Assembly (NCBI GenBank): GCA_018268675.1
Contig: JAFDWB010000092.1
Coordinates: 1-64,000, forward strand
Direction of reading: 5' to 3'
Origin: Actinomycetota bacterium
GTDB taxonomy: Bacteria; Actinomycetota; Thermoleophilia; Solirubrobacterales; 70-9
Length of the DNA: 64,000 nt
Shown here: piece after piece, positions 8,118 through 21,637 of the stretch
Layout: every line of letters begins with the position of its first letter
How positions within the stretch are numbered: the first letter of the stretch is position 1
Translations under genes and position numbers: made by a program
Notes under the pieces: generated by a model
What the model was told of the DNA's origin: nothing
Seen by the model: the letters and a program-made list of their open reading frames with translations, nothing else
The model's database searches: none

Positions 8118-8996
8118 ATGCGTAGATCGACCCTTGCCATCGTCCTCCCGCTCGCCCTCGGCCTGGTGCTGGTCGCGGCCGGCTGCGGCGGCAAGACCTC
8201 GAGCTCCTCGACCACCGCCGCGGGCGAAGGCGAAGCCGCGAGCGCCGCCGCCTGCACCCCGGCGAAGATGCAGACGCAGACGCCCGGCGTGCTGACCGTC
8301 GCCACCGACAAACCCGCCTACCCGCCGTACTTCGAAGAAGGCGAACCGGCCAACGGGAAGGGCTTCGAGAGCGCCGTCGCCTACGCGATCGGCAAGCAGC
8401 TCGGGTACCCGAAATCGAAGATCAAGTGGACGGTCGAGCCCTTCGACTCCTCCTACGCGCCGGGCCCGAAGAGCTTCGACTTCGACGTCAACGAGATCTC
8501 GATCACGCCGACCCGCGAAAAGGCGGTCGACTTCTCGGTGCCCTACTACTCGGCCAACCAGGCGGTCGTCGCGCTGGAAGGATCGGCGGCGGCGAAGGCC
8601 AGATCGCTGGCCGAACTGAAGGACACCAAGATCGGGGTCCAGATCAACACCACGAGCCTCTCCGCGGTTAACGAAGAAATCGAACCGTCGAACAAACCGG
8701 AAGTCTTCAACAGCTCCGGCGACGTGGTGACGGCGCTGAAGAACGGACAGGTCGAAGCGGTGGTGGTCGACCTCCCGACGGCGCTCTACCTGACCGCCGC
8801 CCAGGTCGAAAACGCGACCATCGTCGGCCAGTTCGGCAAGGCCGAAGGCGAAGAATGGGGCGCCCTGCTGGCGAAAGGCTCGCCGCTGACCGCCTGTGTC
8901 TCCGGGGCGATCGAAGCGCTCGAAGAATCGGGCGAACTGGAAAAGATCACGCAGCGGTGGATGAGCCAGGCCGCGAAAGCGCCGCAGCTTCACTGA
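8118..8996 (+). CDS. Polar amino acid-type ABC transporter substrate-binding lipoprotein
   Basis: 292 aa. The signal peptide has the lipobox LVAAGC. The mature region is a type II binding fold of family 3 (GVLTVATDKPAYPPYFEEG, ... FDFDVNEISITPTREKAVDFSVPYYSANQAVV). In that family such sequences contact the alpha-amino and carboxyl groups of glutamine, glutamate, arginine or related solutes. It is followed directly by its permease and ATPase. A weak -10-like TAGGAT lies 24 bases before the ATG. Glutamate codons are nearly all GAA. Confidence 0.9.
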   Translation: MRRSTLAIVLPLALGLVLVAAGCGGKTSSSSTTAAGEGEAASAAACTPAKMQTQTPGVLTVATDKPAYPPYFEEGEPANGKGFESAVAYAIGKQLGYPKSKIKWTVEPFDSSYAPGPKSFDFDVNEISITPTREKAVDFSVPYYSANQAVVALEGSAAAKARSLAELKDTKIGVQINTTSLSAVNEEIEPSNKPEVFNSSGDVVTALKNGQVEAVVVDLPTALYLTAAQVENATIVGQFGKAEGEEWGALLAKGSPLTACVSGAIEALEESGELEKITQRWMSQAAKAPQLH

Positions 8997-9012
8997 GCTG
9001 CGCCCGCGGCGG

Positions 9013-9852
9013 GTGACCGAGACCGCCACCACCGCCCCCGGCGCGCGTCGCCTCGAACGCGAGGCGGCCAAACGACGCCGCGCGCGCCGCAACGCGGGGA
9101 TCGCCGCCGCCTCCTCGGTGATCGTCATCGGCGGCCTCGCGGCGCTGATCCTCACCAGCCCCGGCTGGCCCACGGTTCGCGAAACGTTCTTCTCCTGGAG
9201 CGAATTCCGCAATGCCTTCCCGGAAGTCCTGAACGGCTTCTGGCTCGACATCAAGGTCTTCATGGTGGTCGAGGCGGCGGTGCTCGTGATCGCGCTGGTG
9301 ATCGCGATGATCCGCGTCAACCGCTCGCCGGGCCTCTTCCCGGTGCGCCTGCTCTCGACCGTCTGGGTGGACGTCTTCCGCGGCGTGCCGACGGTGCTGC
9401 TCGTCTACCTGGTCGGCTTCGGCGTCCCGGCGCTCGAACTCGAAGGTCTGCCGACCGACCCGGTGGTGCTCGGCGGGATCGCGCTGACGCTCTCCTACAG
9501 CGGCTACGTCTCCGAGGTCTACCGGGCCGGGATCAACTCGGTCCACCGCGGGCAGACCGACGCGGCGCTCTCGGTCGGCCTCACCCAGACGCAGGCGATG
9601 CGCCACGTGGTCCTGCCGCAGGCGATCCGCCGCGTCGCCCCGCCGCTGCTGAACGACTTCGTCGCCCTGCAGAAGGACGTCGCGCTGATCTCGATCATCG
9701 GCCCGCAAGAGGCCTTCCGCGTCGCCCAGATCTACCAGGGCGAAAACTTCAACTACACGCCGATCATCGCCGCGGCGATGCTCTACCTGGTGATCACGAT
9801 CCCGCTGGCGCGGATCGTCGACCGCATGGGCGGGGCCGGGGGAGTGCGCTGA
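9013..9852 (+). CDS. Polar amino acid-type ABC transporter permease
   Basis: 279 aa with a charged cytoplasmic N-terminus (about 30 aa) and five or six membrane segments. The HisM/GlnP coupling motif is present as YVSEVYRAGINSVHRGQTDAALSVGLTQTQAMRHVVLPQAIRR. The start is a GTG. It lies 16 bases after the binding-protein gene, and its stop overlaps the ATPase start. Confidence 0.9.
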   Translation: MTETATTAPGARRLEREAAKRRRARRNAGIAAASSVIVIGGLAALILTSPGWPTVRETFFSWSEFRNAFPEVLNGFWLDIKVFMVVEAAVLVIALVIAMIRVNRSPGLFPVRLLSTVWVDVFRGVPTVLLVYLVGFGVPALELEGLPTDPVVLGGIALTLSYSGYVSEVYRAGINSVHRGQTDAALSVGLTQTQAMRHVVLPQAIRRVAPPLLNDFVALQKDVALISIIGPQEAFRVAQIYQGENFNYTPIIAAAMLYLVITIPLARIVDRMGGAGGVR

Positions 9853-10610
9853 TGGCGCGCGGCGGGCCGCCGGTGATCGAGGTGCGCGGCGTGACCAAGG
9901 CCTTCGGCGAGCGCGAGGTCCTGCACGGAGTCGACTTCGATGTCGCCGAGCACGAGGCGGTCGCGCTGATCGGTGCCTCCGGCTCGGGGAAGTCGACGCT
10001 GCTGCGGTGCATCGACCTGCTCGAGGAGATCGACGACGGCGACATCTTCCTCGACGGCGAGGTGATCACCGACCCCTCGGTGCCGCCGGTGGCGGTGCGG
10101 CGCAAGCTCGGGGTCGTCTTCCAGGCCTACAACCTCTTCCCCCACATGAGCGTCCTGCAGAACGTGGTGCTGGGACAGATGCGGGCGCAGAAGGTGGGGC
10201 GGCGCGAGGCGGAGGAGGAAGGGCGGGCGCTCCTGGCGCGCTTCGGCCTCGCGGGGCGCGAGGACGACCGCCCCGAGGAGCTCTCCGGCGGCCAGCAGCA
10301 GCGCGTCGCGATCGCCCGCGCCTTCGCCGGCAAGCCCCGCGCCCTGCTCCTCGACGAGGTGACCAGCGCCCTCGACCCGGAGCTCGTCGGCGAGGTCCTC
10401 GAGGCGGTCCGCGACCTCAAGGCGGCGGGCATGACGATGGTGATCGCCACCCATGAGATGGCCTTCGCCCGCGAGGTCGCCGACGAGGTCGCCTTCCTCC
10501 ACCAAGGCCGCATCGTCGAGTCCGGCCCACCTCGCCAGGTGCTGGAGGAACCCCACGCCGAGGAGACCCGCCGCTTCCTCGCCCGGCTGCTGGAGGCGGG
10601 GCGGGCGTAG
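9852..10610 (+). CDS. Polar amino acid-type ABC transporter ATP-binding protein
   Basis: 252 aa GlnQ/HisP-like ATPase. Walker A is GASGSGKST, the signature is LSGGQQQRVAIARA and Walker B is ALLLDEV, followed by TSALDPELVGEVL. The Val after the catalytic Glu, where Pro is common, is also normal in this subfamily. The H-loop is ATHEM. The start overlaps the permease stop by one base, and this is the last gene of the three-gene transporter. Confidence 0.9.
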   Translation: MARGGPPVIEVRGVTKAFGEREVLHGVDFDVAEHEAVALIGASGSGKSTLLRCIDLLEEIDDGDIFLDGEVITDPSVPPVAVRRKLGVVFQAYNLFPHMSVLQNVVLGQMRAQKVGRREAEEEGRALLARFGLAGREDDRPEELSGGQQQRVAIARAFAGKPRALLLDEVTSALDPELVGEVLEAVRDLKAAGMTMVIATHEMAFAREVADEVAFLHQGRIVESGPPRQVLEEPHAEETRRFLARLLEAGRA

Positions 10611-11377: not shown

Positions 11378-11450
11378 GCACCAGTGCCTTAATCGGTTAA
11401 AGGACCGGACTTGTAAGCCGGTGATCCGGGTTCGAGCCCCGGCTGGTGCA
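11378..11450 (+). tRNA. tRNA-Thr (anticodon TGT)
   Basis: 73 bases fold as a complete cloverleaf. The acceptor is GCACCAG/CTGGTGC with discriminator A, the D stem is CCTT/AAGG, the anticodon loop is CTTGTAA and the T arm is CCGGG-TTCGAGC-CCCGG. No CCA is encoded. The closing pair of the anticodon stem is A-G (positions 31/39), which is unusual. The loop has U33 and reads ACA codons. It is directly followed by an aminoacyl-tRNA synthetase paralogue. Confidence 0.9.
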
Positions 11451-11488: not shown

Positions 11489-13207
11489 ATGGCAGGGAAC
11501 ATTTTCGACAGCATCGACGGGGTGGCGGCGGGAGTGTCCGCGGCGGCTCCCTGGGCGGCGCGCTCGCCCTTCCGGCCGGAGGAGGGCCGCGATCTGATGC
11601 TGGTGCCCCGGGTCCGCGACTGGCTCGCCGACCCAGCCGCGCGGGAGGCGCTCGAGCGGATCGCCGCCGACCCCGCCGTGGCCGAGGTCCGCGAGCACGG
11701 CAAGGGCGTCGACGTCCGCCTCGACGACGAATGGATCGAGGCGCGCGGCGAGCCGCTCGAGTCCGGCCCCGTCGCCCCCGATGCCAACGCAGACCTCGCC
11801 GCCGGCGCGCGCTACGCCGTCTACTTCTGGGGCGCCAACACGACCAAGGCCCTCCACGTCGGCCACCTCCGCAACCTCGCGCTCGGCAACGCGATCGCCG
11901 CCGCGCTGCGGGTCGGCGGCGCCCGGGTGGAGAACCGCAGCCTGATCTGCGACGTCGGCCGCAGCATGGGGGAGGCGATGGCAGGAGTCGTCGACTCCGG
12001 CCGCGCCGACGACGAGCTCGGCGGCGAGAACGGCGAGAAGTCCGATCACTTCGTCGGCCTCTGTTACGCCGACTACGTGAAGGCGGGGCGCGGCGACCTC
12101 GGCGACGACGGCGCCGAGGACTCGGTCGCCCGCGAGTCGGCCGTCTACGACGACAAGGCCGACGAGCTGATGATGCGGGTGCTGGCGGGCGACCAGCGGG
12201 CGCTGGAACTGTGGTCGAAGACGCGCGCCTGGGTGATCTCCGGGCAACGGAAGACGCTCGCCCGGCTCGGCGTCCCCTTCGACCGGGTGATCTTCGAGTC
12301 CGACTTCCTTCCCGAGGTCGCCGAGCTGACCAACCTCGGCCTGCGCGAAGGGACGCTGCGCCGCCGCGAGGACGGGATGGTCATCTACCCGACCGGCCGC
12401 GAGGAGCTGGAAGAGATGCCGCTGGTGCGCGCTGACGGCCTCCCGACCCAGCACATGCGCGCGCTCGCCTACTGGGCGGCGGCGCCGGAGCTCGACGACC
12501 TCACCTCGCTGCAGGTCTGCGGCACCGAGTGGGTCGCCCACGTCACCTGCCGGCGGCAGCTGCTCGACGCGCTCGCGGTCGCCCGCCCGAACGGCCACCC
12601 GAACCCGGTCACCAACGGCGACGGCCGCGGCGGCCCGCCCACCCACGACGTCTTCCACGGCATGGTCGCGCGCTCCAACGAAGCGGTGAGCTCCTCGAAG
12701 CAGGGGGCGCTGCTGATCGACGACCTGGTCGAGTGGGCCGACGGCCGGCTCCTCGCCGACCCCGAGCTGGCGGCGGTGCGGGCGGCCCACCCGCAGCCCG
12801 ACCGGATCGCCGCCCGCGTCGTGCTCGCCTACTTCCTTCTGCAGACGACCTCGAAGCGGGTCGAGTTCGAGCCGGAGTTGCTCTTCGAGGCCGAGCGCAG
12901 CCTCGGCTGGGACCTCGTCCGCGCGCAGGCGGCCGGGACCCGGGTGCCGGCCGGGGTCGGCGCGGGGGGCGGTGGCGGCGCGGGTGCCGAGGATCCCGAC
13001 TACCGCTTCGCCGTCGTCCAGTCGGAGCTCTTCCGCCGCCACCTGCGGAGCGCGATCGCCGACCTCGACCCGGTGCCGCTCGCCCGCTATATCTCCCATT
13101 TCTCCCGCTGGTACGCGAGCGGCGGGCCGCAGTCGCCGCGGGTCGGCGCCGTCGCCCGGGCGGTGCTCGACGAGGGCGTCCGCGGGCTCGGTCTGGAGGC
13201 GGCGTGA
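11489..13207 (+). CDS. Arginyl-tRNA synthetase paralogue
   Basis: 572 aa from the ATG at 11489, which has GGAG upstream; an in-frame GTG at 11468 is the alternative. The class I catalytic core shows the ArgRS-type HIGH segment (KALHVGHLRN) followed by IAAALRVGGARVENRSLICDVGRSMGE. The late core has ADGLPTQHMRALAYW and VCGTEWVAHVTCRRQLL. The C-terminus (about 480-560) is a DALR-like helical domain. The KMSKS-equivalent loop reads EAVSSSKQGALLI. Key ArgRS strings such as the SPN before HIGH and GDWG after it are replaced (WGANTTKALHVGHL; CDVG), so a housekeeping role is doubtful. It is the first gene of a tightly overlapping operon with chorismate and N-oxygenation enzymes. I infer that it activates or transfers an amino acid in a biosynthetic pathway. 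Its stop overlaps the pabAB start. Confidence 0.7.
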   Translation: MAGNIFDSIDGVAAGVSAAAPWAARSPFRPEEGRDLMLVPRVRDWLADPAAREALERIAADPAVAEVREHGKGVDVRLDDEWIEARGEPLESGPVAPDANADLAAGARYAVYFWGANTTKALHVGHLRNLALGNAIAAALRVGGARVENRSLICDVGRSMGEAMAGVVDSGRADDELGGENGEKSDHFVGLCYADYVKAGRGDLGDDGAEDSVARESAVYDDKADELMMRVLAGDQRALELWSKTRAWVISGQRKTLARLGVPFDRVIFESDFLPEVAELTNLGLREGTLRRREDGMVIYPTGREELEEMPLVRADGLPTQHMRALAYWAAAPELDDLTSLQVCGTEWVAHVTCRRQLLDALAVARPNGHPNPVTNGDGRGGPPTHDVFHGMVARSNEAVSSSKQGALLIDDLVEWADGRLLADPELAAVRAAHPQPDRIAARVVLAYFLLQTTSKRVEFEPELLFEAERSLGWDLVRAQAAGTRVPAGVGAGGGGGAGAEDPDYRFAVVQSELFRRHLRSAIADLDPVPLARYISHFSRWYASGGPQSPRVGAVARAVLDEGVRGLGLEAA

Positions 13208-15561
13208 TGCGCACGCTCCTGGTCGACAACCACGACTCCTACACCTACAACGTCTTCCACCTGCTGGCGGCGGCCTCGGGGGAGGAGCCGGTGGTGGTCA
13301 ACAACGACGCGGTCAGCTGGCGGGTGCTCTCGCGGTCGAAGTTCGACGCCTTCGTGCTCTCGCCTGGCCCGGGGCGCCCGGAACGCTGGCACGACTTCGG
13401 CGTCTGCCGCGACATCCTCCGCTACAGCGAGGTGCCGGTGCTGGGGATCTGCCTCGGCCACCAGGGGATCGGCAACCTGCTCGAGGGCGGCGTCGCCAGC
13501 GCCCCGCAGCCGATGCACGGGCGGCTCAGCCGCGTCCGCCACCGGGGGACCGGGATCTTCGCCGGCGTGCCGCAGGACTTCGCGGTCGTCCGCTACCACT
13601 CGCTCGCGATCACCGGCCCGGTCGGCCCCGAAGGCCACGTCGTCGCCTGGGCCGACGACGGCGTCGTGATGGGCGTCGAGCATGTCTCGCGGCCGATGTG
13701 GGGGGTCCAGTTCCACCCCGAGTCGATCGCCACCGAGCACGGCGACCGCATCGCGCGCAACTTCTTCGAGCTCGCCGGGCGCGCCGCCGCCGCGAGCCCC
13801 TCGACCCACTTCATCCCAAGTCCAGCGCGCCATTCCCAGGACCCCCGCCCGCGACGGGCCGAAAACCCGCCAGATAGTCCGGTTTCCGGCCCGTCGGCGG
13901 GGGTGGCGCGCGCCGGGTGGACGGTGCGGTCGCGGACGCTCGAGGGGGCGGCGCCGACGGAGCACCTCTACGAACGACTCTTCGCCGCCGCCGAGACGTC
14001 CTTCTGGCTCGATAGCGCCGACGCGCCGACCTGGCTCGCGCAGTGCTCTTATATGGGGACCAGCGCCGGGCCGGGGGAGCGGCACCTCTCCTACGACGTC
14101 GACGCCGCGACGACGACGATCCGCACGCCCGGCGGGGAGGAGGTCCGCCACGGCTCGATCTTCGACCTGCTCGAGCGCGAGCTGACCGACCTCCGCGCCG
14201 AGGCACCGGACGGCGTCGACCGCGGCCTGATCGGCGGCTACGTCGGCTACCTCGGGTACGAGCTGAAGGCCGACTGCGGCTCGTCGAACGTCCACAGCTC
14301 CGACCTCCCCGACGCGGCCCTGGTGCTCGCCAACCGCGTCGTCGCCGTCGACCACGCCCGCGAGCGAACCCACCTCTTCGCCCTGGTCCCCTCCGCCCCG
14401 GCCGACGGTGTTGATGGGCCGAAAACCGCTGATATAGAGCGGTTTTCGGCCCGTCAACGGGAGGAACTGGCGGCGGCGGAGGCGTGGCTCGAGGAGGCGA
14501 CGCGGCTCGCCGCGGCGGCGATCTGCGACCCGCCGCCGGAGCGACCGCTCGACCCGCCTGCCGAACCCGGCGGGCACGTCACCTTCCGCTGCGGCCGCGG
14601 GCGCGCGCGGTACCTCGCCGACATCGAACGCTCGCAGGCGGAACTGGCGGCGGGGGAATCCTATGAGGTCTGCCTGACCGACCAGATCTCGACCGACGCG
14701 AGCCCCGACCCGTTCGCGCTCTACCGCCGTCTGCGGCGCTCCAACCCGGCGCCGTTCGCCGCCTTCCTGCGCTTCGGCGACACCGCGATCGTCAGCTCCT
14801 CGCCGGAGCGCTTCCTCTCGGTCGGCCGCGACGGCGCGGTCCAGGCGCGCCCGATCAAGGGGACGATCTCGCGCGCCGAGGATCCCGCCGAGGACGCCGC
14901 CCGCCGCGCGGAGCTCGCCGCCGACGAAAAGACCCGCGCCGAGCACCTGATGATCGTCGACCTGCTGCGCAACGACCTCGGCCGGGTCAGCGAGGTCGAC
15001 TCGGTCCGCGTCCCCGACCTCATGGTGGTCGAGCCCTACGCGACGGTCCACCAGGTCGTCTCGACCGTGACCGGGCAGCTCGAGGCGGGGCGCTCGCCGG
15101 TCGAGTGCGTGCGCAACTGCTTCCCCGGCGGCTCGATGACCGGGGCGCCGAAGGAGCGCACGATGGAGATCATCGACGAGCTCGAGGACGAGGCGCGCGG
15201 CGTCTACTCGGGCGCGATCGGCTACTTCGGCACCGACGGGGCGGTCGACCTCTCGATCGTGATCCGGACGATCGTCATCCGCCCCGGCCGCACGACGATC
15301 GGGGCGGGCGGCGCGATCGTCATGCAGTCCGACCCGGAGGAGGAGTTCGACGAGATCCTGCTGAAGGCGCGGGCGCCGATGGCGGCGATCGCGCGCACCG
15401 TGACCGGGCGCGGCGACGAGGGCGCCTGGAGCGTCGAGCTCGAGCCGCGGGCGGCGATGGCAGGGGTGGCGGCGGGCCGCGGGGATGGCGGCTCGGCGCG
15501 CGACGCAGTCAGGGACGACGGGTCGCCCGCGCCGCCGACGAGGAGCGCCGAGGCGGCATGA
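13207..15561 (+). CDS. pabAB: Fused PabA-PabB aminodeoxychorismate synthase
   Basis: 784 aa. Residues 1-205 are a class I glutamine amidotransferase (LLVDNHDSYTYNVFHLL, nucleophile C82 in GICLGHQG, H170/E172 in QFHPES). Residues about 240-740 are the chorismate-binding component I. PIKGT at 549-553 carries the lysine typical of PabB, where TrpE has alanine, so the product should be 4-amino-4-deoxychorismate. LLRNDLGRVSEVDSV and SMTGAPKE are also intact. The chemistry is chorismate plus Gln to ADC plus Glu. It can feed folate or, with an ADC mutase, p-aminophenylalanine-type metabolites; the mutase-like gene three positions downstream favours the second. Two palindromic elements are translated within it, one in the domain linker (about 212-233) and one in a PabB loop (402-417). 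Its stop overlaps the GNAT start (ATGA). Confidence 0.92.
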   Translation: MRTLLVDNHDSYTYNVFHLLAAASGEEPVVVNNDAVSWRVLSRSKFDAFVLSPGPGRPERWHDFGVCRDILRYSEVPVLGICLGHQGIGNLLEGGVASAPQPMHGRLSRVRHRGTGIFAGVPQDFAVVRYHSLAITGPVGPEGHVVAWADDGVVMGVEHVSRPMWGVQFHPESIATEHGDRIARNFFELAGRAAAASPSTHFIPSPARHSQDPRPRRAENPPDSPVSGPSAGVARAGWTVRSRTLEGAAPTEHLYERLFAAAETSFWLDSADAPTWLAQCSYMGTSAGPGERHLSYDVDAATTTIRTPGGEEVRHGSIFDLLERELTDLRAEAPDGVDRGLIGGYVGYLGYELKADCGSSNVHSSDLPDAALVLANRVVAVDHARERTHLFALVPSAPADGVDGPKTADIERFSARQREELAAAEAWLEEATRLAAAAICDPPPERPLDPPAEPGGHVTFRCGRGRARYLADIERSQAELAAGESYEVCLTDQISTDASPDPFALYRRLRRSNPAPFAAFLRFGDTAIVSSSPERFLSVGRDGAVQARPIKGTISRAEDPAEDAARRAELAADEKTRAEHLMIVDLLRNDLGRVSEVDSVRVPDLMVVEPYATVHQVVSTVTGQLEAGRSPVECVRNCFPGGSMTGAPKERTMEIIDELEDEARGVYSGAIGYFGTDGAVDLSIVIRTIVIRPGRTTIGAGGAIVMQSDPEEEFDEILLKARAPMAAIARTVTGRGDEGAWSVELEPRAAMAGVAAGRGDGGSARDAVRDDGSPAPPTRSAEAA
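13842..13904. repeat. Palindromic element, family A (copy inside pabAB linker)
   Basis: Arms contain CGACGGGCCGAAAACC and GGTTTCCGGCCCGTCG around a short AT-containing centre (AGATAG), with outer CCCCCGCC/GGCGGGGG extension. It is read in frame as the linker between the amidotransferase and PabB domains. It is related to copies at 14410, 21812 and 63928. Confidence 0.8.
14410..14458. repeat. Palindromic element, family A (copy inside PabB domain)
   Basis: Arms GTTGATGGGCCGAAAACCGC and GCGGTTTTCGGCCCGTCAAC surround TGATATAGA. It is translated as VDGPKTADIERFSAR, at an expected surface loop before a helix. One base pair in the arms differs from perfect symmetry. Confidence 0.85.
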
Positions 15562-16121
15562 CCGGACCGGTCGTCGACATCCCGGCCGCCGAGCCGGGGG
15601 AAGGCGGTTGGGACATCCGTCCCGCACGTACCGATGACGTACCGGCGGTGGCCGCGGCGGTCGCGGCGCTGCTCGCGGAGCTGGGCGGGACGCCGCCGCC
15701 GCGCACCGCGATCGAGGCCGAGGCCCGCGCCCACATCGAGGACCCGTCCCTCGGCATCGTCCTCGTCGCCCAGCTTGCCCCCGACCCCGCCGCTCCCGCG
15801 GTGAGTTTGCAGAAACCCGCGGATCGCGCGGGGAACTGCGAACTCGTCGGGGTGCTCGCCGCGAGCTGGGCGCGGGCGATCCAGGTCGCCGGGCGCCTGC
15901 TCACGATCGAGGTCCTCTGGACGCGGCGCGAGTGGCGCGACCGTGGCGTCGGTGCGGCCCTGGTCGAGGCGCTCGCCGCGGCGGCGGCCGCCGCGGGGGC
16001 GGGCCGGGTCGAGGTCGGGCTGCCGCGCGAGAGCTTCCCCGCCCTCCGCCCCACCGAGCGCTTCTACCTCGCCAACGGCTTCGAGCGCCTCGGCCCGCGG
16101 ATGCGGAGGGCAGTGCCGTGA
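15558..16121 (+). CDS. GNAT-family N-acetyltransferase
   Basis: 187 aa. The N-terminal IRPARTDDVPAVAAAVAALL and the acetyl-CoA loop WRDRGVGAALVEALAAAA followed by PRESFPALRPTERFYLANGFERLG define the GNAT fold. The acceptor is unknown, and an amine of the pathway intermediate is a natural guess. Residues 82-97 (VSLQKPADRAGNCELV) are encoded by a family B palindrome. It sits between the strands VLVAQL and VGVLAAS, where other GNATs have a tight turn. The start overlaps the pabAB stop and the stop overlaps the deacetylase start. Confidence 0.85.
   Translation: MTGPVVDIPAAEPGEGGWDIRPARTDDVPAVAAAVAALLAELGGTPPPRTAIEAEARAHIEDPSLGIVLVAQLAPDPAAPAVSLQKPADRAGNCELVGVLAASWARAIQVAGRLLTIEVLWTRREWRDRGVGAALVEALAAAAAAAGAGRVEVGLPRESFPALRPTERFYLANGFERLGPRMRRAVP
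15801..15848. repeat. Palindromic element, family B (copy inside GNAT gene)
   Basis: Arms GTGAGTTTGCAGAAACCCGC and GCGGGGAACTGCGAACTCGTC surround GGATC. The copy lies in frame in a beta-turn of the acetyltransferase. The same sequence occurs between genes at 21894, 35770 and 63849. Confidence 0.85.
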
Positions 16122-17080
16122 GCGAGCTGGTGATGGTCGAGCAGCGGACCAACGGTCTCGACACGAGCTCAATCTGGATCCGCGAAGGCGGGGTGCGGTT
16201 CGTGGGGCGGGATTCCGACGCGCGGCTCGCGGCGCTGCGGCTCGGGCTGCGACGCCACTTCGGGGTGCGGGCGGTCGACGCGGGGGCCGGGGACGAGGAG
16301 GTCGAGCGCGCACTCGCGGCGCTGCACGGTCCCCGCCATCTGGCCGCCCTCGACGCGGTCGGGGAGGAGCCGACCGTGCTGGCGGACCTGGCCCCGCCCG
16401 GGCTCGAGCCCGACATCCCGGTCAACGCGGCGCTCGTCGCCGCCGCCCGGGAGGCGGTGCGGACGGCGCTCTCGGCGGCGGGCCGGCTGCTCGACGGCGA
16501 TCGCTATGCGTACGCGGTGTGCCGGCCGCCCGGCCACCACGCGGGCCCCGACTTCATCGGCGGCTACTGCTACCTGAACAACGCCGCCGCCGCGGTGCAG
16601 GCGCTGCGCGAAGGGGGGCTCGCCCCGGTCGGCGTCCTCGACCTCGACCTCCACTACCCGAACGGAACCGCGGAGCTGGTCGAGCGGATGGGGGGCGAGG
16701 CGACGCTCCACTCGCTGCACGCCACCCCGGTCACCAACGTCGCCGCCGGCACCGCACTGCCGCGGGCACTGCGGGAACGCGCCCATGCCTTCGCCGCCGC
16801 TCCCGACCCGGCCGCCTACCTGGCCGAGGTCGAGGCCTCACTCGCGGAGCTCGCCGCCGACTCCGCCGCGTTGGTCGTCTCGCTCGGCTACGACACGGTC
16901 GAGGGCGACCCCCACGGTGGCTGGCACTTCGGCCCCGAGGTCTTCGCCGGCATCGGCCGCCTCCTCGCCGCCACCGAGCTGCCGGTCTGCGTCGTCCAGG
17001 AGGGCGGCTACGCGCTCGAGGCGCTGGCGCCGTGCAGCCACGCCTTCGTCGCCGGACTGCTCGGGGAGGACCCGGTTTGA
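16118..17080 (+). CDS. HDAC/acetylpolyamine amidohydrolase-family zinc deacetylase
   Basis: 320 aa from the GTG that overlaps the GNAT stop. Family motifs are RPPGHHAGPD (the paired active-site histidines), GYCYLNNAAAA, and the zinc ligands D177 and H179 in LDLDLHYPNG plus D259 in SLGYDTVEGDP. All ligands are present, so it should be active. Relatives remove acetyl groups from polyamines, small amines or lysine side chains. Being coupled to an acetyltransferase suggests a protect-and-deprotect step on one pathway intermediate, or resistance by acetylation. That pairing is inference. Confidence 0.85.
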   Translation: MSELVMVEQRTNGLDTSSIWIREGGVRFVGRDSDARLAALRLGLRRHFGVRAVDAGAGDEEVERALAALHGPRHLAALDAVGEEPTVLADLAPPGLEPDIPVNAALVAAAREAVRTALSAAGRLLDGDRYAYAVCRPPGHHAGPDFIGGYCYLNNAAAAVQALREGGLAPVGVLDLDLHYPNGTAELVERMGGEATLHSLHATPVTNVAAGTALPRALRERAHAFAAAPDPAAYLAEVEASLAELAADSAALVVSLGYDTVEGDPHGGWHFGPEVFAGIGRLLAATELPVCVVQEGGYALEALAPCSHAFVAGLLGEDPV

Positions 17081-17490
17081 CCGCCGCCGGGGAGCGCGCC
17101 CTGACCCCGGCCGAGCAGGCGGTCGCCACGGGCCTGGCACCCTTCCGCGCGCGTCTCGACGAGATCGACGCGCAACTCGTCGACCTGCTCGGCGAGCGGT
17201 TCCAGATCTGCCGCGAAGTAGCCGTCCACAAGTCGGAAAACGAGATCGAGATGATGCAGCCGGGCCGGGTCGAGATCGTCCGCGCCCGCTATCTCCAGCA
17301 CGGCGCCGAGGTCGACCTCCCGACCGACTTCACGGCGGCCCTCTTCGACCTGATGATCGACGCCACCTGCCGCGCCGAGGACGAGCTGATGGTCCGCCTC
17401 GCCGCGGGTGAGGGGAGAGCGTCTGCATTTACCCCTCCTGCGCGGGGGAAAACGCAGACACAGACGCGGGCGCGCGGGAGTGTGACGTGA
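17077..17490 (+). CDS. AroQ-type chorismate mutase, possibly 4-amino-4-deoxychorismate mutase
   Basis: 137 aa starting at a TTG that overlaps the previous stop. The all-helical AroQ pattern is visible: RLDEIDAQLVDLLGERFQICREVAVHKSENEIEMMQPGRVEIVRARY, with the substrate-contacting Arg of helix 1, the Arg/Lys of REVAVHK, and a C-terminal helix (FDLMIDATCRAEDELM). The expected step is rearrangement of chorismate to prephenate, or of ADC to 4-amino-4-deoxyprephenate as PapB/CmlD do. The neighbouring ADC synthase supports the amino substrate. No PapC-like dehydrogenase is in the window. The last 25 residues are low complexity and partly encoded by a palindrome (17419-17461). Confidence 0.8.
   Translation: MTAAGERALTPAEQAVATGLAPFRARLDEIDAQLVDLLGERFQICREVAVHKSENEIEMMQPGRVEIVRARYLQHGAEVDLPTDFTAALFDLMIDATCRAEDELMVRLAAGEGRASAFTPPARGKTQTQTRARGSVT
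17419..17461. repeat. Palindromic element in the mutase C-terminal tail
   Basis: Arms GCGTCTGCATTTACCCC and GGGGAAAACGCAGACAC pair at 14 of 17 positions. It is translated as the tail beyond the last helix of the AroQ domain and belongs to a family different from A and B. Confidence 0.7.
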
Positions 17491-18773
17491 GCCTGCCGCC
17501 GGGGCCGCGGCTGCCGCGGGCCCTGCAGGCGCTCGGGTGGGCGCGGCGGTCGCTGCCCTGGCTGGAGCGCTGCCGGGCGCGCTACGGCGACGCCTTCACC
17601 CTGCGCATCCGGCACTGGGGCGACTGGGTCGTGCTCGCCGACGAGGTCGACGTCAAAGCCGTCTTCACCGCCGGCGACAAGGTCGGGGTCGCGCTCGCCA
17701 ATCCGCTGCTCGGGCCCGTGCTCGGGCCGCGCTCGGTGATGCTCTCCGAAGAACCCGAGCACATGCGCCGGCGGCGCGTCGTCCTGCCCGCCTTCCACGG
17801 CGAGGCGATCGCCAACGACGCCGAGACGATCGGCGAGGTGACGCGCCGCGAGATCGCCGCCTGGCCCGCCGGCGAGCCGTTCGCGCTCTGGCCGCGGATG
17901 CAGCGGATCACCCTCGAGGTGGTGATGCGCGCCGTCTTCGGCCCCGGCGCCGACGACCCGCGCCTCGACGACCTGCGCCGGCGCCTCGCCGACCTCACCG
18001 ATTACCTCAACCGCCCGCGCAGCCTCGCCGCGCTCACCGCCCTCGGCCCGGAGTGGGTGCGCCGCAGCCGCGGCTACCGCCAGGCGATGCGCCCGGTCGA
18101 GGACGCGGCACTCGCCGAGGTCCGCCGCCGCCGCTCCGAGCCGATCCCCGCCCGCCCCGACATCGTCTCGATGCTGATCGCCGCCCGCCGCGAGGACGGC
18201 TCGCCGCTCGGCGAGGGTGAGCTGCGCGACGAACTCCTCACCCTGCTCACCGACGGCCCGACCTCGACCTCGCTCGCCTGGACCTTCGAGCGCCTCCTCC
18301 GCAACCCGGAGACCCTCGCCCGCGCCCGTCGCGCCAGCCTCGCCGCGGGCGCCGACGACGCCTACCTCGACGCCGTCGTCAAGGAGACGCTGCGCATGCG
18401 CCCGCCGGTGCCGGTCGTCGTCCGCCGCCTGCGCGAGCCGATGTGGATCGCCGGCCGCGACCTCCCGGCCGGGACCGTCGTCGCCCCCTGCATCCACCTG
18501 CTCCACCGTGACCCGTCCCACTACCCCGAGCCGCTCCGCTTCCGCCCCGAGCGCTTCCTCGAGACCCCCGCCGGGACGTACACCTGGATCCCCTTCGGCG
18601 GCGGCGTGCGCCGCTGCCTCGCCGCCAGCTACGCCGAACTCGAGATGAAGCGGGTCCTGCGCGAGGTGCTGGCGGCGGTCGACCTTCGACCGGTGGACGG
18701 TCGCGACGAGCGGGTCCGCAAAGCTGCGATCTCCTTCAGTCCGGGAGAGAAGGGGTTGGTGATGGTGGGATGA
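17487..18773 (+). CDS. Cytochrome P450
   Basis: 428 aa. The C-helix is EPEHMRRRRVVLPAFHGEAI and the I-helix region is LLTDGPTSTSLAWTFERLL. The ExxR motif is E300-R303 (KETLRMRPP) and the heme loop is PFGGGVRRCLAA with Cys377. All catalytic landmarks are intact. The oxygen-activation segment reads DGPTST, close to the usual A/G-G-x-x-T. A monooxygenase in this operon could hydroxylate or couple the aromatic part of the product. The substrate is unknown, and redox partners are not in the window. The GTG start overlaps the mutase stop and the stop overlaps the next start. Confidence 0.93.
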   Translation: MSLPPGPRLPRALQALGWARRSLPWLERCRARYGDAFTLRIRHWGDWVVLADEVDVKAVFTAGDKVGVALANPLLGPVLGPRSVMLSEEPEHMRRRRVVLPAFHGEAIANDAETIGEVTRREIAAWPAGEPFALWPRMQRITLEVVMRAVFGPGADDPRLDDLRRRLADLTDYLNRPRSLAALTALGPEWVRRSRGYRQAMRPVEDAALAEVRRRRSEPIPARPDIVSMLIAARREDGSPLGEGELRDELLTLLTDGPTSTSLAWTFERLLRNPETLARARRASLAAGADDAYLDAVVKETLRMRPPVPVVVRRLREPMWIAGRDLPAGTVVAPCIHLLHRDPSHYPEPLRFRPERFLETPAGTYTWIPFGGGVRRCLAASYAELEMKRVLREVLAAVDLRPVDGRDERVRKAAISFSPGEKGLVMVG

Positions 18774-21637
18774 GCGAGGGGATCTCCGATCTCCTGATCG
18801 TCGGCGCGGGGGCCAAGGCGGCCGCGATCGCCGCCAAGGTCGACGCCCTGAACCGGCTCGGCCTGGCCGCGCCGACGGTGACGATCGTCGAGAAAACCGA
18901 GCCCGCCGCCTCCTGGCTCGGCCTCAACGGGATGACCTCGGGCGAAGAGCCGCTCGCCGTGCCGCCGATCAAGGACGTCGGCTTCCCGTATCGCAGCGCG
19001 CGCCAGTTCCCGGCGGTCGGGGACGAGCTCGACGCCGCCCTGCTGCCGCTCAGCTGGCAGCGCCACGCGATCGAACGCGGCGAGTACGCGCCCTGGGTCA
19101 ACGCGGGCGCGCCGCCGATCCTCCACCAGGACTACGGCACCTACCTCGGCTGGGTGCTGGAGCGCGCCACCCGGGGCGTGAGCCTGCTGCGCGGCCGGGT
19201 AGTGGCGGTCGCCCTTGATCCGTCTCGCGAGCACTGGGTGATCGACGTCGAGGGCGGGGAGGACGGCGCGCCGCGGCGGCTCGCCGGGCGGGCGCTGCTG
19301 CTCACCGGGCCGGGGGTCCACCGGGCGTTCCCGCACGATCCGGCGGCCGAGCCCCGCGTCCTCCACTGCGACAGCAGGCGCGACGAGTTCGCCCGGCTGC
19401 CCGCCGAGCGCGAGGTCGACGTGGCGATCGTCGGCGGCGGCGAGAGCGCGCTCTCGGCGCTCGTCTTCCTGCGCGCGCTCCGCCCCGCGGCGCGGATCAC
19501 CGTCTACACGCCGGTGCTGCCGCTCTCTCGCGGCGAGAGCTTCCTCGAGAACCGCGTCTTCGCCGACCCCGACGACGTCGGCTGGGAGGCGCTCGACCTC
19601 GAGGCCCGCCGGGACTTCGTCAAGCACTGCGACCGGGGGGTCTTCGACGCCGGCGTGATCGCCCGCCTCGCCGGCGAGCAGCGCTGCGAGTTCGAGCTCG
19701 GCCGCGCGGTCGGGGTCACCGCGGCGCGGGGCGGGGAGGAGGTGGAGCTCGAGCTCGAGACCCCGGCCGGACCCGCGATCGCCCACCACGAGTACGTCGT
19801 CAACTGCACCGGCTTCGACCTGACGGCGCAGCTGCGCGGCCTCTTCGCCGAGCCGGTGCGCGCCGACCTCGAGGCGCGGGTCGGGCCGATCTGGGACCGC
19901 CCGCCGGGGACCGAGCTGCGCTTCGACCGCTCGCTGGCGCTCGAGGGGATGGAGCCGCGCCTCCACATCCCCGGCCTCGCGGGCCTCAGCCAGGGCCCGG
20001 GCTTCGCCAACCTCGGCAGCCTCGGCCTGCTCGCCAACCGGGTGCTGGCGCCGCTCCTGCCGGCCCTCGCGAAGGCGCGCCGCGGCGCGGCGGCCGGAGC
20101 GCTGACGATCCTCGTCGTCGCCCTGCTGGCGGGCTGCGGCGGCGGCTCGTCCTCCTCGTCCCCGTCCGGCGGATCGGGCTCCGGCGAAGGAGGCGGGAGC
20201 ATCGCCCCCGGCAAGGAAGTCGCCTACCCCGGCATCGACCTCGCCAACACGCGCTTCGCGACCGGCCCGATCAACCGCGCCTCGGCGCCGCAGCTGAAGC
20301 TCGCCTGGAAGGTGCCGAGCAAAGCGCGGAGCACCTACGGCGCGTTCGCCGCCTCGCCGGTGATCTCGGGCGGCGTCGTCTACATGCAGGACCTCGAATC
20401 GAACGTCGCCGCGGTCGACCTCGAATCGGGCGAAACCCTCTGGGAAACGAAGATGGAAGAACCGGACCAGGGGCCGAACGGCGTCAGCGTCGCCGAAGGC
20501 ATGGTCTTCGGCGCGACCCCGACCAAGGCCTTCGCGCTCGACGCCGAAACCGGCAAGGAAGTCTGGTCGACCAAGCTGACCACGGTGCGGAACGAATCGA
20601 TCGACATGTCGCCGGGCGTCCACGGTGGGCTCGTCTATGTCTCGACCGTGCCGACCAACGTCACCAGCGGCTACTACGGCGGCATCGTCGGCACGCTCTG
20701 GGCGCTCGACACGAAGACCGGGACGAAAAAGTGGCACTTCGACACGGTGCCGAAGAGCCTCTGGTCCAAGCAGCACCGCTCGATCAACGCGGGCGGCGGC
20801 CTCTGGTACGCGCCCTCCTTCGACGAAGAAGGCGGGATCTACATGGGGACCGGCAACCCGGTGCCGTTCCCGGGCGCCGAAGGGCTGCCCTGGGGCAAGA
20901 GCCGCCCCGGCCCTGACCTCTACACCGACTCGCTGGTGAAGCTGAACGCGAAGACGGGCAAGCTCGAGTGGTACCACCAGGTGACGCCGCACGACCTCTA
21001 CGACTGGGACTTCCAGGATCCGCCGATCCTGGCGAGCGCGGGTGGCCGGGAGCTGGCGATCGGGGCGGGAAAGTCGGGCCAGGTGGTCGCGGTCGACGCG
21101 AAGACCGGCAAGGTCGTCTGGCAGGTCGCGGTCGGCAAGCACAACGGCCACGACGAAGACGGCCTGCTCGCGATGCGCGGCGAATTCTCCAAGCTGCCGA
21201 GGCAGGCGACGGTCTACCCGGGCCTCCTCGGCGGCGTGATCGCCCCGATGGCCGCCTCGAAGACGACGCTCTTCGTGCCGATCGTCAACCACCCGCTGAC
21301 GGTCGAAAACGGGGAAACGATCAGCGAAGGCAGCGAAATGAGCGGCGAAATGGTTGCCCTCGATCTCGCCACCGGCAAGAAAGTGTGGAGCCAGACCTAC
21401 GAAGCGCCGGCCTTCGGCGCCCCGGTCGCGGTCAACGACATGGTCTTCTTCGCCACCTTCGACGGCATCCTGCACGGCCTCGACGCGAGCACCGGCGGCG
21501 AAGTCTGGAGCGCCACCCTGCCCGCCGGCTCCAACTCCGGCGTGACCGCCTCCGGCGACAGCCTGGTCCTCGCCGCCGGCATCGCGGTCGCCGAAGGCCA
21601 GACGCCCTCGTTGGTGGCGTATCGGCTCGGGGGGTGA
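18770..21637 (+). CDS. MbtG-like N-hydroxylase joined in frame to a PQQ-type quinoprotein lipoprotein
   Basis: 955 codons without a stop. Residues 1 to about 430 match lysine/ornithine N-monooxygenases: FAD site IVGAGAKAAAIAAK, KDVGFPYRSARQ, NADPH site IVGGGESALSAL, and the late LAGLSQGPGFANLGSLGLLANRV as in mycobactin MbtG. Residues about 434-456 form a lipoprotein signal (RRGAAAGALTILVVALLAGC, Cys456) followed by a Ser/Gly linker. Residues about 480-955 are a quinoprotein beta-propeller (GIDLANTRFATGPINR, TPHDLYDWDFQDPP). Glu codons change sharply from GAG to GAA at the junction. An internal GTG at 20042 could start the lipoprotein separately, so this may be two products from one frame. The first overlaps the P450 stop. 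Confidence 0.8.
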   Translation: MSEGISDLLIVGAGAKAAAIAAKVDALNRLGLAAPTVTIVEKTEPAASWLGLNGMTSGEEPLAVPPIKDVGFPYRSARQFPAVGDELDAALLPLSWQRHAIERGEYAPWVNAGAPPILHQDYGTYLGWVLERATRGVSLLRGRVVAVALDPSREHWVIDVEGGEDGAPRRLAGRALLLTGPGVHRAFPHDPAAEPRVLHCDSRRDEFARLPAEREVDVAIVGGGESALSALVFLRALRPAARITVYTPVLPLSRGESFLENRVFADPDDVGWEALDLEARRDFVKHCDRGVFDAGVIARLAGEQRCEFELGRAVGVTAARGGEEVELELETPAGPAIAHHEYVVNCTGFDLTAQLRGLFAEPVRADLEARVGPIWDRPPGTELRFDRSLALEGMEPRLHIPGLAGLSQGPGFANLGSLGLLANRVLAPLLPALAKARRGAAAGALTILVVALLAGCGGGSSSSSPSGGSGSGEGGGSIAPGKEVAYPGIDLANTRFATGPINRASAPQLKLAWKVPSKARSTYGAFAASPVISGGVVYMQDLESNVAAVDLESGETLWETKMEEPDQGPNGVSVAEGMVFGATPTKAFALDAETGKEVWSTKLTTVRNESIDMSPGVHGGLVYVSTVPTNVTSGYYGGIVGTLWALDTKTGTKKWHFDTVPKSLWSKQHRSINAGGGLWYAPSFDEEGGIYMGTGNPVPFPGAEGLPWGKSRPGPDLYTDSLVKLNAKTGKLEWYHQVTPHDLYDWDFQDPPILASAGGRELAIGAGKSGQVVAVDAKTGKVVWQVAVGKHNGHDEDGLLAMRGEFSKLPRQATVYPGLLGGVIAPMAASKTTLFVPIVNHPLTVENGETISEGSEMSGEMVALDLATGKKVWSQTYEAPAFGAPVAVNDMVFFATFDGILHGLDASTGGEVWSATLPAGSNSGVTASGDSLVLAAGIAVAEGQTPSLVAYRLGG
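20042..21637 (+). CDS. Possible separate product: PQQ-type dehydrogenase-like lipoprotein
   Basis: Alternative internal start at GTG 20042 in the same frame as the N-oxygenase, giving 531 aa. The N-terminus would be VLAPLLPALAKARRG followed by a hydrophobic stretch and the lipobox LLAGC, a normal lipoprotein signal peptide. The body is an eight-bladed-propeller type quinoprotein (alcohol or sugar dehydrogenase-like) with repeated G-x-x-x-A-L-D-x-x-T-G-x-x-x-W units. The region TPHDLYDWD lies near the family's active site. Without a Sec-accessible N-terminus the fused form could not export this domain, so internal initiation is attractive. No strong ribosome site is seen before the GTG. Confidence 0.45.
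   Translation: MLAPLLPALAKARRGAAAGALTILVVALLAGCGGGSSSSSPSGGSGSGEGGGSIAPGKEVAYPGIDLANTRFATGPINRASAPQLKLAWKVPSKARSTYGAFAASPVISGGVVYMQDLESNVAAVDLESGETLWETKMEEPDQGPNGVSVAEGMVFGATPTKAFALDAETGKEVWSTKLTTVRNESIDMSPGVHGGLVYVSTVPTNVTSGYYGGIVGTLWALDTKTGTKKWHFDTVPKSLWSKQHRSINAGGGLWYAPSFDEEGGIYMGTGNPVPFPGAEGLPWGKSRPGPDLYTDSLVKLNAKTGKLEWYHQVTPHDLYDWDFQDPPILASAGGRELAIGAGKSGQVVAVDAKTGKVVWQVAVGKHNGHDEDGLLAMRGEFSKLPRQATVYPGLLGGVIAPMAASKTTLFVPIVNHPLTVENGETISEGSEMSGEMVALDLATGKKVWSQTYEAPAFGAPVAVNDMVFFATFDGILHGLDASTGGEVWSATLPAGSNSGVTASGDSLVLAAGIAVAEGQTPSLVAYRLGG

Follow-up and report, generated by a model that had tools for sequence, protein, structure and literature searches.

The window analysed here is the first 64,000 nucleotides (nt) of contig JAFDWB010000092.1, from a Solirubrobacterales genome of the Actinomycetota (G000; other genomes, G000 contigs and loci carry G-, C- and L-numbers, respectively). 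It contains a tRNA gene followed, on the same strand, by seven open reading frames (ORFs), each overlapping its neighbour (Table 1). The first junction is a one-base overlap, TGATG, while the other five are four-base overlaps. The families, assigned from Pfam and NCBIfam matches, are a paralogue of arginyl-tRNA synthetase (ArgRS), hereafter ArgRSp; a PabA-PabB fusion (PabAB), or 4-amino-4-deoxychorismate (ADC) synthase; a GNAT acetyltransferase; an HDAC-fold deacylase; an AroQ-fold mutase; a cytochrome P450; and a flavin N-oxygenase. An earlier note on this DNA described the same seven overlapping genes, and its coordinates and gene names hold. Its description of the last ORF applies to residues 1 to ~440 only, the remainder of the 955 amino acids (aa) forming a membrane segment or lipobox and a beta-propeller. 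The tRNA gene, which ends 38 nt before the ArgRSp start, was overlooked, though it is the strongest clue to the role of the synthetase. We propose, with a probability of roughly 55%, that the operon makes a cationic, non-proteinogenic amino acid of the amiclenomycin type, that is 3-(4-aminocyclohexadienyl)alanine or a near analogue, and that this amino acid is loaded on the private tRNA.

Table 1. Features of the operon (seven ORFs, 11489-21637) and of its upstream flank in the window.
Feature	Position	Strand	Basis or remark
Amino-acid-type ABC importer (binding protein, permease, ATPase)	8118..10610	+	SBP_bac_3, BPD_transp_1, ABC_tran
Dedicated tRNA gene (probable), 73 nt, anticodon UGU	11378..11450	+	Rfam 65 bits, ARAGORN; software label tRNA-Thr
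ArgRS paralogue (ArgRSp), 572 aa: N-terminal, catalytic (NxTKALHVGH) and DALR-like domains	11489..13207	+	NCBIfam argS
PabA-PabB fusion, 784 aa, ADC synthase	13207..15561	+	Pfam GATase, Chorismate_bind
GNAT N-acetyltransferase	15558..16121	+	Pfam/NCBIfam
Zinc deacylase, HDAC/acetylpolyamine amidohydrolase fold	16118..17080	+	Pfam Hist_deacetyl
AroQ-fold ADC mutase, TTG start, MMQP motif	17077..17490	+	CM_2; TIGR01803 best NCBIfam match
Cytochrome P450	17487..18773	+	Pfam p450 E 1.4e-49; kept in clusters
NbtG/MbtG-type flavin N-oxygenase domain	18770..20086	+	phmmer to 4d7e
Membrane segment/lipobox and PQQ/BamB-like beta-propeller, in frame with the N-oxygenase	20087..21637	+	Pfam PQQ, PQQ_2

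ArgRSp has the fold of an ArgRS and lacks part of its substrate pocket. The best fold matches of its AlphaFold model (pLDDT 86) are ArgRS structures, including the tRNA-bound 1f7u, and both the HVGH motif and an upstream lysine (Asn117-x-Thr-Lys120) are conserved. Identity to canonical ArgRS is ~24%, and the match to NCBIfam argS (E 2.7e-23) reaches 82 bits, below the equivalog cut-off of 262. Arginine is bound in ArgRS by a Glu, a Tyr and an Asp; aligned with the yeast enzyme, ArgRSp retains the first (Glu294, here Glu270) and replaces the others (Tyr347 by Gln321, Asp351 by Ala325). Both the score and the pocket thus set it apart from true ArgRS. Nor is it the only ArgRS of the genome, as a canonical gene lies on contig C84. 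Searching the literature for gene clusters with an ArgRS paralogue yielded no relevant paper.

A same-strand tRNA gene lies within 70 nt 5' of ArgRSp in 17 of 21 loci from several genera. The spacing is 25-46 nt in 12 loci of the group linked to ADC genes and 1-70 nt in five loci of distant ArgRSp relatives, where the tRNA is a tRNA-Arg(UCU). Elsewhere the tRNA is divergent at 208 nt (L050) or in the neighbourhood and non-adjacent (L039, L040), and the tRNA search came up empty for certain short or distant loci (L037, L043, L051-L054). The tRNA body is conserved among loci, with changes on both sides in 8 of 21 stem pairs; 98.6% of alignment cells pair, against 31-49% when the alignment is slid. 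The anticodon drifts: the window's genus has UGU and the sister family UAA, L038 and L099 carry AGU, and the tRNA beside the distant relatives has UCU. A canonical tRNA-Thr(UGU) is separately present in G000 (L263), and across the complete canonical tRNA sets of G000, G089 and G060 we found either such a tRNA or an 85-nt type II tRNA-Leu(UAA). The cluster tRNA is therefore supernumerary in the three genomes checked, and the closest genomic tRNA is only ~70% identical to it. Its strand, its narrow spacing across genera, its supernumerary status and its unique body all disfavour a chance neighbour or an integration site. As in the pylTS pair, a supernumerary tRNA stands beside a synthetase and the two are conserved together; ArgRSp and this tRNA very probably form a dedicated synthetase-tRNA pair.

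Two of the four genes directly downstream of ArgRSp, those of the ADC synthase and the mutase, support a pathway from chorismate. PabAB retains the PIKGT lysine and the fused glutaminase of ADC synthases, and its closest solved structure is one such enzyme (8hx6, phmmer E 7e-168). The deacylase matches the acetylpolyamine amidohydrolase 3men (E 1e-30) and conserves the active-site residues in alignment. For the mutase, the best NCBIfam match, the chorismate-mutase-like TIGR01803, scores 55 bits, below its cut-off of 73; the MMQP motif is nevertheless common to this protein and those of the CmlD/PapB type, and it is 44% identical to its counterpart in a chloramphenicol-type cluster of Rhodococcus. 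These assignments, an ADC synthase and a PapB/CmlD-type ADC mutase, bear out the earlier note's proposal of a dedicated pathway from chorismate.

The same note held that the gene set matches no known pathway, and here we differ. Contiguous PabAB, GNAT, HDAC-fold and ADC mutase genes, in that order, are characteristic of the amiclenomycin-type cassette, and the window's order recurs, followed by a gene for a protein resembling prephenate dehydratase (PDT), in three loci of a Streptomyces-like genus (L202-L204). Window and L203 proteins are 43% (PabAB), 36% (GNAT), 36% (HDAC) and 48% (mutase) identical; to the GNATs of the Streptomyces cassettes generally, the window GNAT is 35-37% identical. 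L203 continues with isopropylmalate synthase-like, methyltransferase, FemAB-like, aconitase-family and isopropylmalate dehydrogenase-like enzymes and BCAT, and is flanked by BioA, MFS, ACP, KAS and BioF genes. The published stravidin (sta) cluster draws on chorismate and branched-chain metabolism and lies beside an alpha-methyl-KAPA cluster (PMC13336041). L203 fits that cluster and its neighbours; both the genus name Streptomyces and the cluster name are presumptive here. A Bradyrhizobium plasmid carries PabA, a PabB::GNAT fusion, HDAC, mutase, PDT-like and exporter genes.

The PDT-like protein is linked to the cluster in only part of its range. In the sister family a protein of ~205 aa is encoded directly after the mutase or close by. 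It has no Pfam match, including to the Pfam PDT family, and the fold of prephenate dehydratase is predicted from its AlphaFold model (pLDDT 85; best match 3mwb, E 4.4e-10), while the catalytic TRF motif is replaced by TTW or similar. The proteins of L044 and L203 are 52% identical. Within the window's genus the gene is unlinked yet co-occurs with the cluster (G000, G077, G128, G056, G089, G044); it is absent from the cluster-less G047 and G114, and G108 and G130, both incomplete, gave no match. A narrow profile matched only G000 among 396 genomes of the phylum, and a broader one matched 35 of 393 genomes of one Streptomyces-like genus. A cupin accompanies the gene twice, fused in L038 and as a neighbour in L039, where an SDR gene is also present, an association which recalls BacA/BacB of bacilysin. 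Another cupin, beside the gene in L127-L129, was set aside as a pathway member, being not homologous at 1e-4 to that of L038/L039 and explained by shared synteny.

Two further settings of PDT-like genes were observed. A second, divergent subfamily occurs in ~32 Streptomyces-like genomes (L205-L215), and in several loci its neighbours are a DUF6421-like protein and an aminotransferase of class IV; it possibly belongs to another pathway with a non-aromatising prephenate-type decarboxylase. On Variovorax plasmids (L137, L138, L139), genes for PDT-like proteins either form part of amino-acid ABC transporter operons or adjoin that of an MMQP-type mutase; a role in uptake or catabolism is possible.

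Synthetase searches across 201 genomes of the order returned ~20 strong relatives of ArgRSp. Gene calls around them recovered, in two families, ArgRSp, PabAB, GNAT, in some cases HDAC, and mutase, with genes for P450, N-oxygenase and propeller close by; this confirms the conserved neighbourhood that the earlier note had proposed as a check. With the order kept in both families, the arrangement is far from chance. The named copies derive from Solirubrobacterales, Solirubrobacteraceae, Patulibacter, Conexibacter and unclassified metagenome-assembled genomes (MAGs) of Actinomycetota or Thermoleophilia. A class-wide search found no strong relative beyond Solirubrobacterales, and a plasmid search found no ArgRSp. 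A remote relative outside the phylum, 26% identical, was seen on an Allomuricauda MAG contig (L110).

From the gene set and its order, the conserved synthetase-tRNA pair, the core common to the Streptomyces and Bradyrhizobium loci and the fold of the PDT-like protein, all of them read from sequence, we infer the following reactions, together with the amino acid charged, its acceptor and the product. PabAB would convert chorismate to 4-amino-4-deoxychorismate, whose 4-amine the GNAT would acetylate as protection. The AroQ mutase would then yield (N-acetyl-)4-amino-4-deoxyprephenate, the PDT-like protein would decarboxylate this without aromatisation, and a housekeeping aminotransferase would complete the amino acid. 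The HDAC-fold enzyme, to which the acetyl group would resemble that of N-acetyl-lysine, would strip it. ArgRSp, its side-chain pocket changed, would charge the amino acid onto the tRNA encoded upstream, and the charged tRNA may then donate the aminoacyl group in a non-ribosomal transfer. Oxidation of the scaffold would fall to the P450 and the NbtG-like N-oxygenase, with N-hydroxylation of the distal amine likely. The resemblance of L203 to the stravidin cluster, and the occurrence of N-acetyl-amiclenomycin in a stravidin (PMC13336041), suggest that the GNAT adds a protecting group before the mutase and PDT-like steps and the deacetylase removes it after them, with an amiclenomycin-type product.

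Confidence differs among the parts. The amiclenomycin-type core chemistry is probable; that ArgRSp charges such an amino acid on the private tRNA is about an even proposition; and, were charging to occur, we would strongly expect the charged tRNA to be used non-ribosomally. Several observations weigh against the proposal as a whole. Firstly, the KMSKS lysine is not conserved in ArgRSp, and we recognised no transferase in the operon that would depend on aminoacyl-tRNA; the GNAT is a poor candidate, since it is common to loci without ArgRSp. Secondly, the PDT-like gene of G000 stops after ~88 residues (contig C71, 24527-24850; L127:9928-10200), where the frame enters unrelated sequence, and a second half was looked for and not found; either a broken gene or a MAG misassembly would explain this. 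Thirdly, the branched-chain module and adjacent bioA of L202/L203, together with their FemAB-like protein, are absent from the window, which has no bioF neighbour either; the operon accordingly does not qualify as a stravidin cluster. Lastly, the PabAB tree does not unite the cassettes in a single supported clade, and one common origin of the cassette is thus unsupported.

Which substrate the N-oxygenase takes bears on the best-surviving alternative. Residues 7-432 match NbtG, an L-lysine monooxygenase (4d7e, E 2.4e-62) and the closest solved relative, a full-length match for the domain. Oxidation of the distal amine of the same scaffold is about as probable as not, whereas lysine is a rather less probable substrate. 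On the latter basis the product might join N6-hydroxylysine to a chorismate-derived part, ArgRSp activating one of the two. Apart from the NbtG match, several genomes of the genus have an amino-acid-type ABC importer linked to the operon, adjoining ArgRSp in L031-L033, L035 and L036 (its membership in the operon is uncertain), and some distant ArgRSp relatives lie by lysine 5,6-aminomutase and LysRS-paralogue genes. The core and tailoring genes leave the substrate unsettled, however, and the MetRS-cupin fusion that forms hydrazines is not present; we consider such a conjugate unlikely. A further observation is that this flavin N-oxygenase, of a cytoplasmic type, continues in frame into a membrane segment and then a beta-propeller of exported type (18770-21637). 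The fusion recurs through five genomes of the genus (window, L029, L030, L031, L084), while L034, L036, L038 and L085 have two genes.

The ADC synthase and mutase, being of the Pap/Cml kind, could instead feed an aromatising dehydrogenase, as in chloramphenicol or pristinamycin synthesis, with the N-oxygenase and P450 acting on an arylamine derived from p-aminophenylalanine. The truncation of the PDT-like gene in G000 lends this some weight, since a housekeeping prephenate dehydrogenase could act in its stead. However, a PapC-like dehydrogenase occurs in none of the ArgRSp clusters examined, but lies beside PabAB and mutase in the Pap/Cml-type loci read, with an NAD-binding neighbour in one further case. 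Such loci among the plasmid matches of the mutase include the Rhodococcus locus, which combines PabB with a prephenate-dehydrogenase-like gene and a gene for a chloramphenicol exporter, and a Streptomyces locus of PabB, dehydrogenase and mutase. In relatives of the window the co-occurring PDT-like gene takes the place of the dehydrogenase, and the GNAT and deacetylase belong to the amiclenomycin-type cassette. The aromatic arylamine favoured by the earlier note is therefore less likely than a non-aromatic cyclohexadienyl amine, and we regard the p-aminophenylalanine route as improbable.

A similarly low probability attaches to ArgRSp as a tRNA-free ligase, which would adenylate an amino acid and hand it directly to a small molecule, the tRNA being incidental. 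In mycothiol synthesis MshC transfers an amino acid to a small molecule without tRNA; MshC and CysRS are among the fold matches of ArgRSp, and its setting, beside a deacetylase and a GNAT, is reminiscent of MshB-MshC-MshD. A 2026 review likewise gives SbzA and AcmF as synthetase-like enzymes in product chemistry (PMC12945691). Against this, the tRNA stays beside ArgRSp in different genera and subfamilies, is surplus to the canonical set and shows the covariation of a functional tRNA, and ArgRSp retains its N-terminal and DALR-like domains, with tRNA-bound 1f7u among its best fold matches.

If the tRNA is charged, the ribosome might in principle use it. Cognate codons are rare in the genes sampled: ACA occurs at 0.24 per thousand in G000, UUA at 0.12 per thousand in the sister family (where ACA is at 4.8), and ACU not at all in 4107 codons of L038. 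Such rarity is expected if mis-decoding is costly. The pattern fails for the distant UCU pair (L046-L049), near which AGA is not rare at 5.4 per thousand. The ACA codons read sit at ordinary positions in housekeeping genes such as TrpE and TrpG, which makes general recoding unlikely and, with the canonical isoacceptors, disfavours genome-wide codon reassignment. Insertion of a chorismate-derived cyclohexadienyl (or N-oxygenated) amino acid at selected rare ACA, ACU or UUA codons of a few proteins or peptides, a natural expansion of the genetic code in the manner of pylTSBCD, seems to us very unlikely.

Antibiotic clusters often carry an additional synthetase copy as a resistance gene, SbzA being named in the review (PMC12945691), and ArgRSp could be such a copy against an arginine-mimicking product. 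We discarded this as highly improbable given the loss of arginine-pocket residues and the divergence from canonical ArgRS, the unrelated gene contexts of its relatives and the non-arginine anticodon of its tRNA. That the operon merely gathers housekeeping enzymes of folate and tyrosine/phenylalanine synthesis by chance can be set aside: although its PabAB is the sole ADC-synthase-like gene seen in G000, and may for that reason also feed folate, several relatives have a second, folate-type PabAB, G000 carries PheA, TrpE and MenF outside the cluster, the AroQ-type mutase is confined to cluster-bearing genomes (22 tested; relatives without the cluster have no AroQ), and gene order is kept across families and, for the core, across phyla.

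Comparison with known systems separates what is familiar in the proposed amiclenomycin-type pathway from what is not. The sta cluster shares the core order, and there, as in the sister family, the PDT-like gene comes next, whereas the window adds the private tRNA, ArgRSp, the P450 and the NbtG-like N-oxygenase-propeller, and its genus has the PDT-like gene unlinked. The chloramphenicol and pristinamycin cassettes (CmlB/D/C, PapA/B/C) share an ADC synthase and an MMQP-type mutase, but the window has a GNAT and a deacetylase, and its relatives a PDT-like protein, in place of the aromatising dehydrogenase. Like pylTSBCD, the locus would combine a tRNA, its cognate synthetase and the synthesis of a cationic non-standard amino acid; unlike pylTSBCD, the synthetase is of class I and ArgRS-derived, the anticodon drifts and reads rare sense codons, and canonical isoacceptors exist with no sign of recoding. 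Valanimycin synthesis (VlmH/VlmL/VlmA: N-hydroxylase, SerRS and GNAT-fold aminoacyl-tRNA transferase) uses a canonical amino acid and, so far as is known, a canonical tRNA. It shares an N-oxygenase and a synthetase paralogue with the window, which makes use of a charged tRNA plausible here, but the window GNAT is a short acetyltransferase, found also in loci without a synthetase, and not a FemX-type double GNAT. MshB/MshC/MshD similarly place a deacetylase, a synthetase paralogue and a GNAT in one pathway, with MshC derived from CysRS and tRNA-free where ArgRSp derives from ArgRS and would have its own tRNA and a chorismate-derived substrate. The N-oxygenase domain is that of NbtG/MbtG, but no siderophore genes lie near the window cluster, and the propeller fusion is a feature of its genus.

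The core is best read as a further member of the known amiclenomycin kind; for the combination of private tRNA, ArgRS-derived synthetase, P450 and N-oxygenase, the literature searched offered no match. Pyrrolysine aside, we found no published locus for a non-standard amino acid in which a dedicated tRNA is accompanied by its own divergent synthetase. The 2026 review, which covers natural product enzymes that depend on aminoacyl-tRNA, lists synthetase-like enzymes and transferases, and in its keyword-matched portions no such pair (PMC12945691). Should our proposal be correct, the locus would offer a natural ArgRS-derived synthetase/tRNA pair apart from the host set, one which may accept a cationic cyclic amino acid and be useful for genetic code expansion. 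It would also extend amiclenomycin-type chemistry, a source of biotin antimetabolites, by a further branch in uncultured Solirubrobacterales, present acetylation and deacetylation as a testable protecting-group strategy on the ADC pathway, and allow anticodon drift to be traced in a tRNA possibly freed from decoding.

Distant ArgRSp relatives occur in other settings. In L046-L049 a paralogue with its own tRNA-Arg(UCU) is kept, in four genomes, with two homologous methyltransferases and an ATP-grasp ligase. In L050-L054 paralogues lie by lysine 5,6-aminomutase subunits, joined in L053 by a LysRS paralogue and in L051 by a protein with LeuRS editing and anticodon domains, so that several synthetase paralogues are grouped around unusual lysine chemistry. 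These contexts point to cationic non-standard amino acids. In the sister family, an argininosuccinate lyase gene lies near the cluster in L037, L041 and L042, with a 3-methyladenine DNA glycosylase-like gene beside the lyase in L037 and L041.

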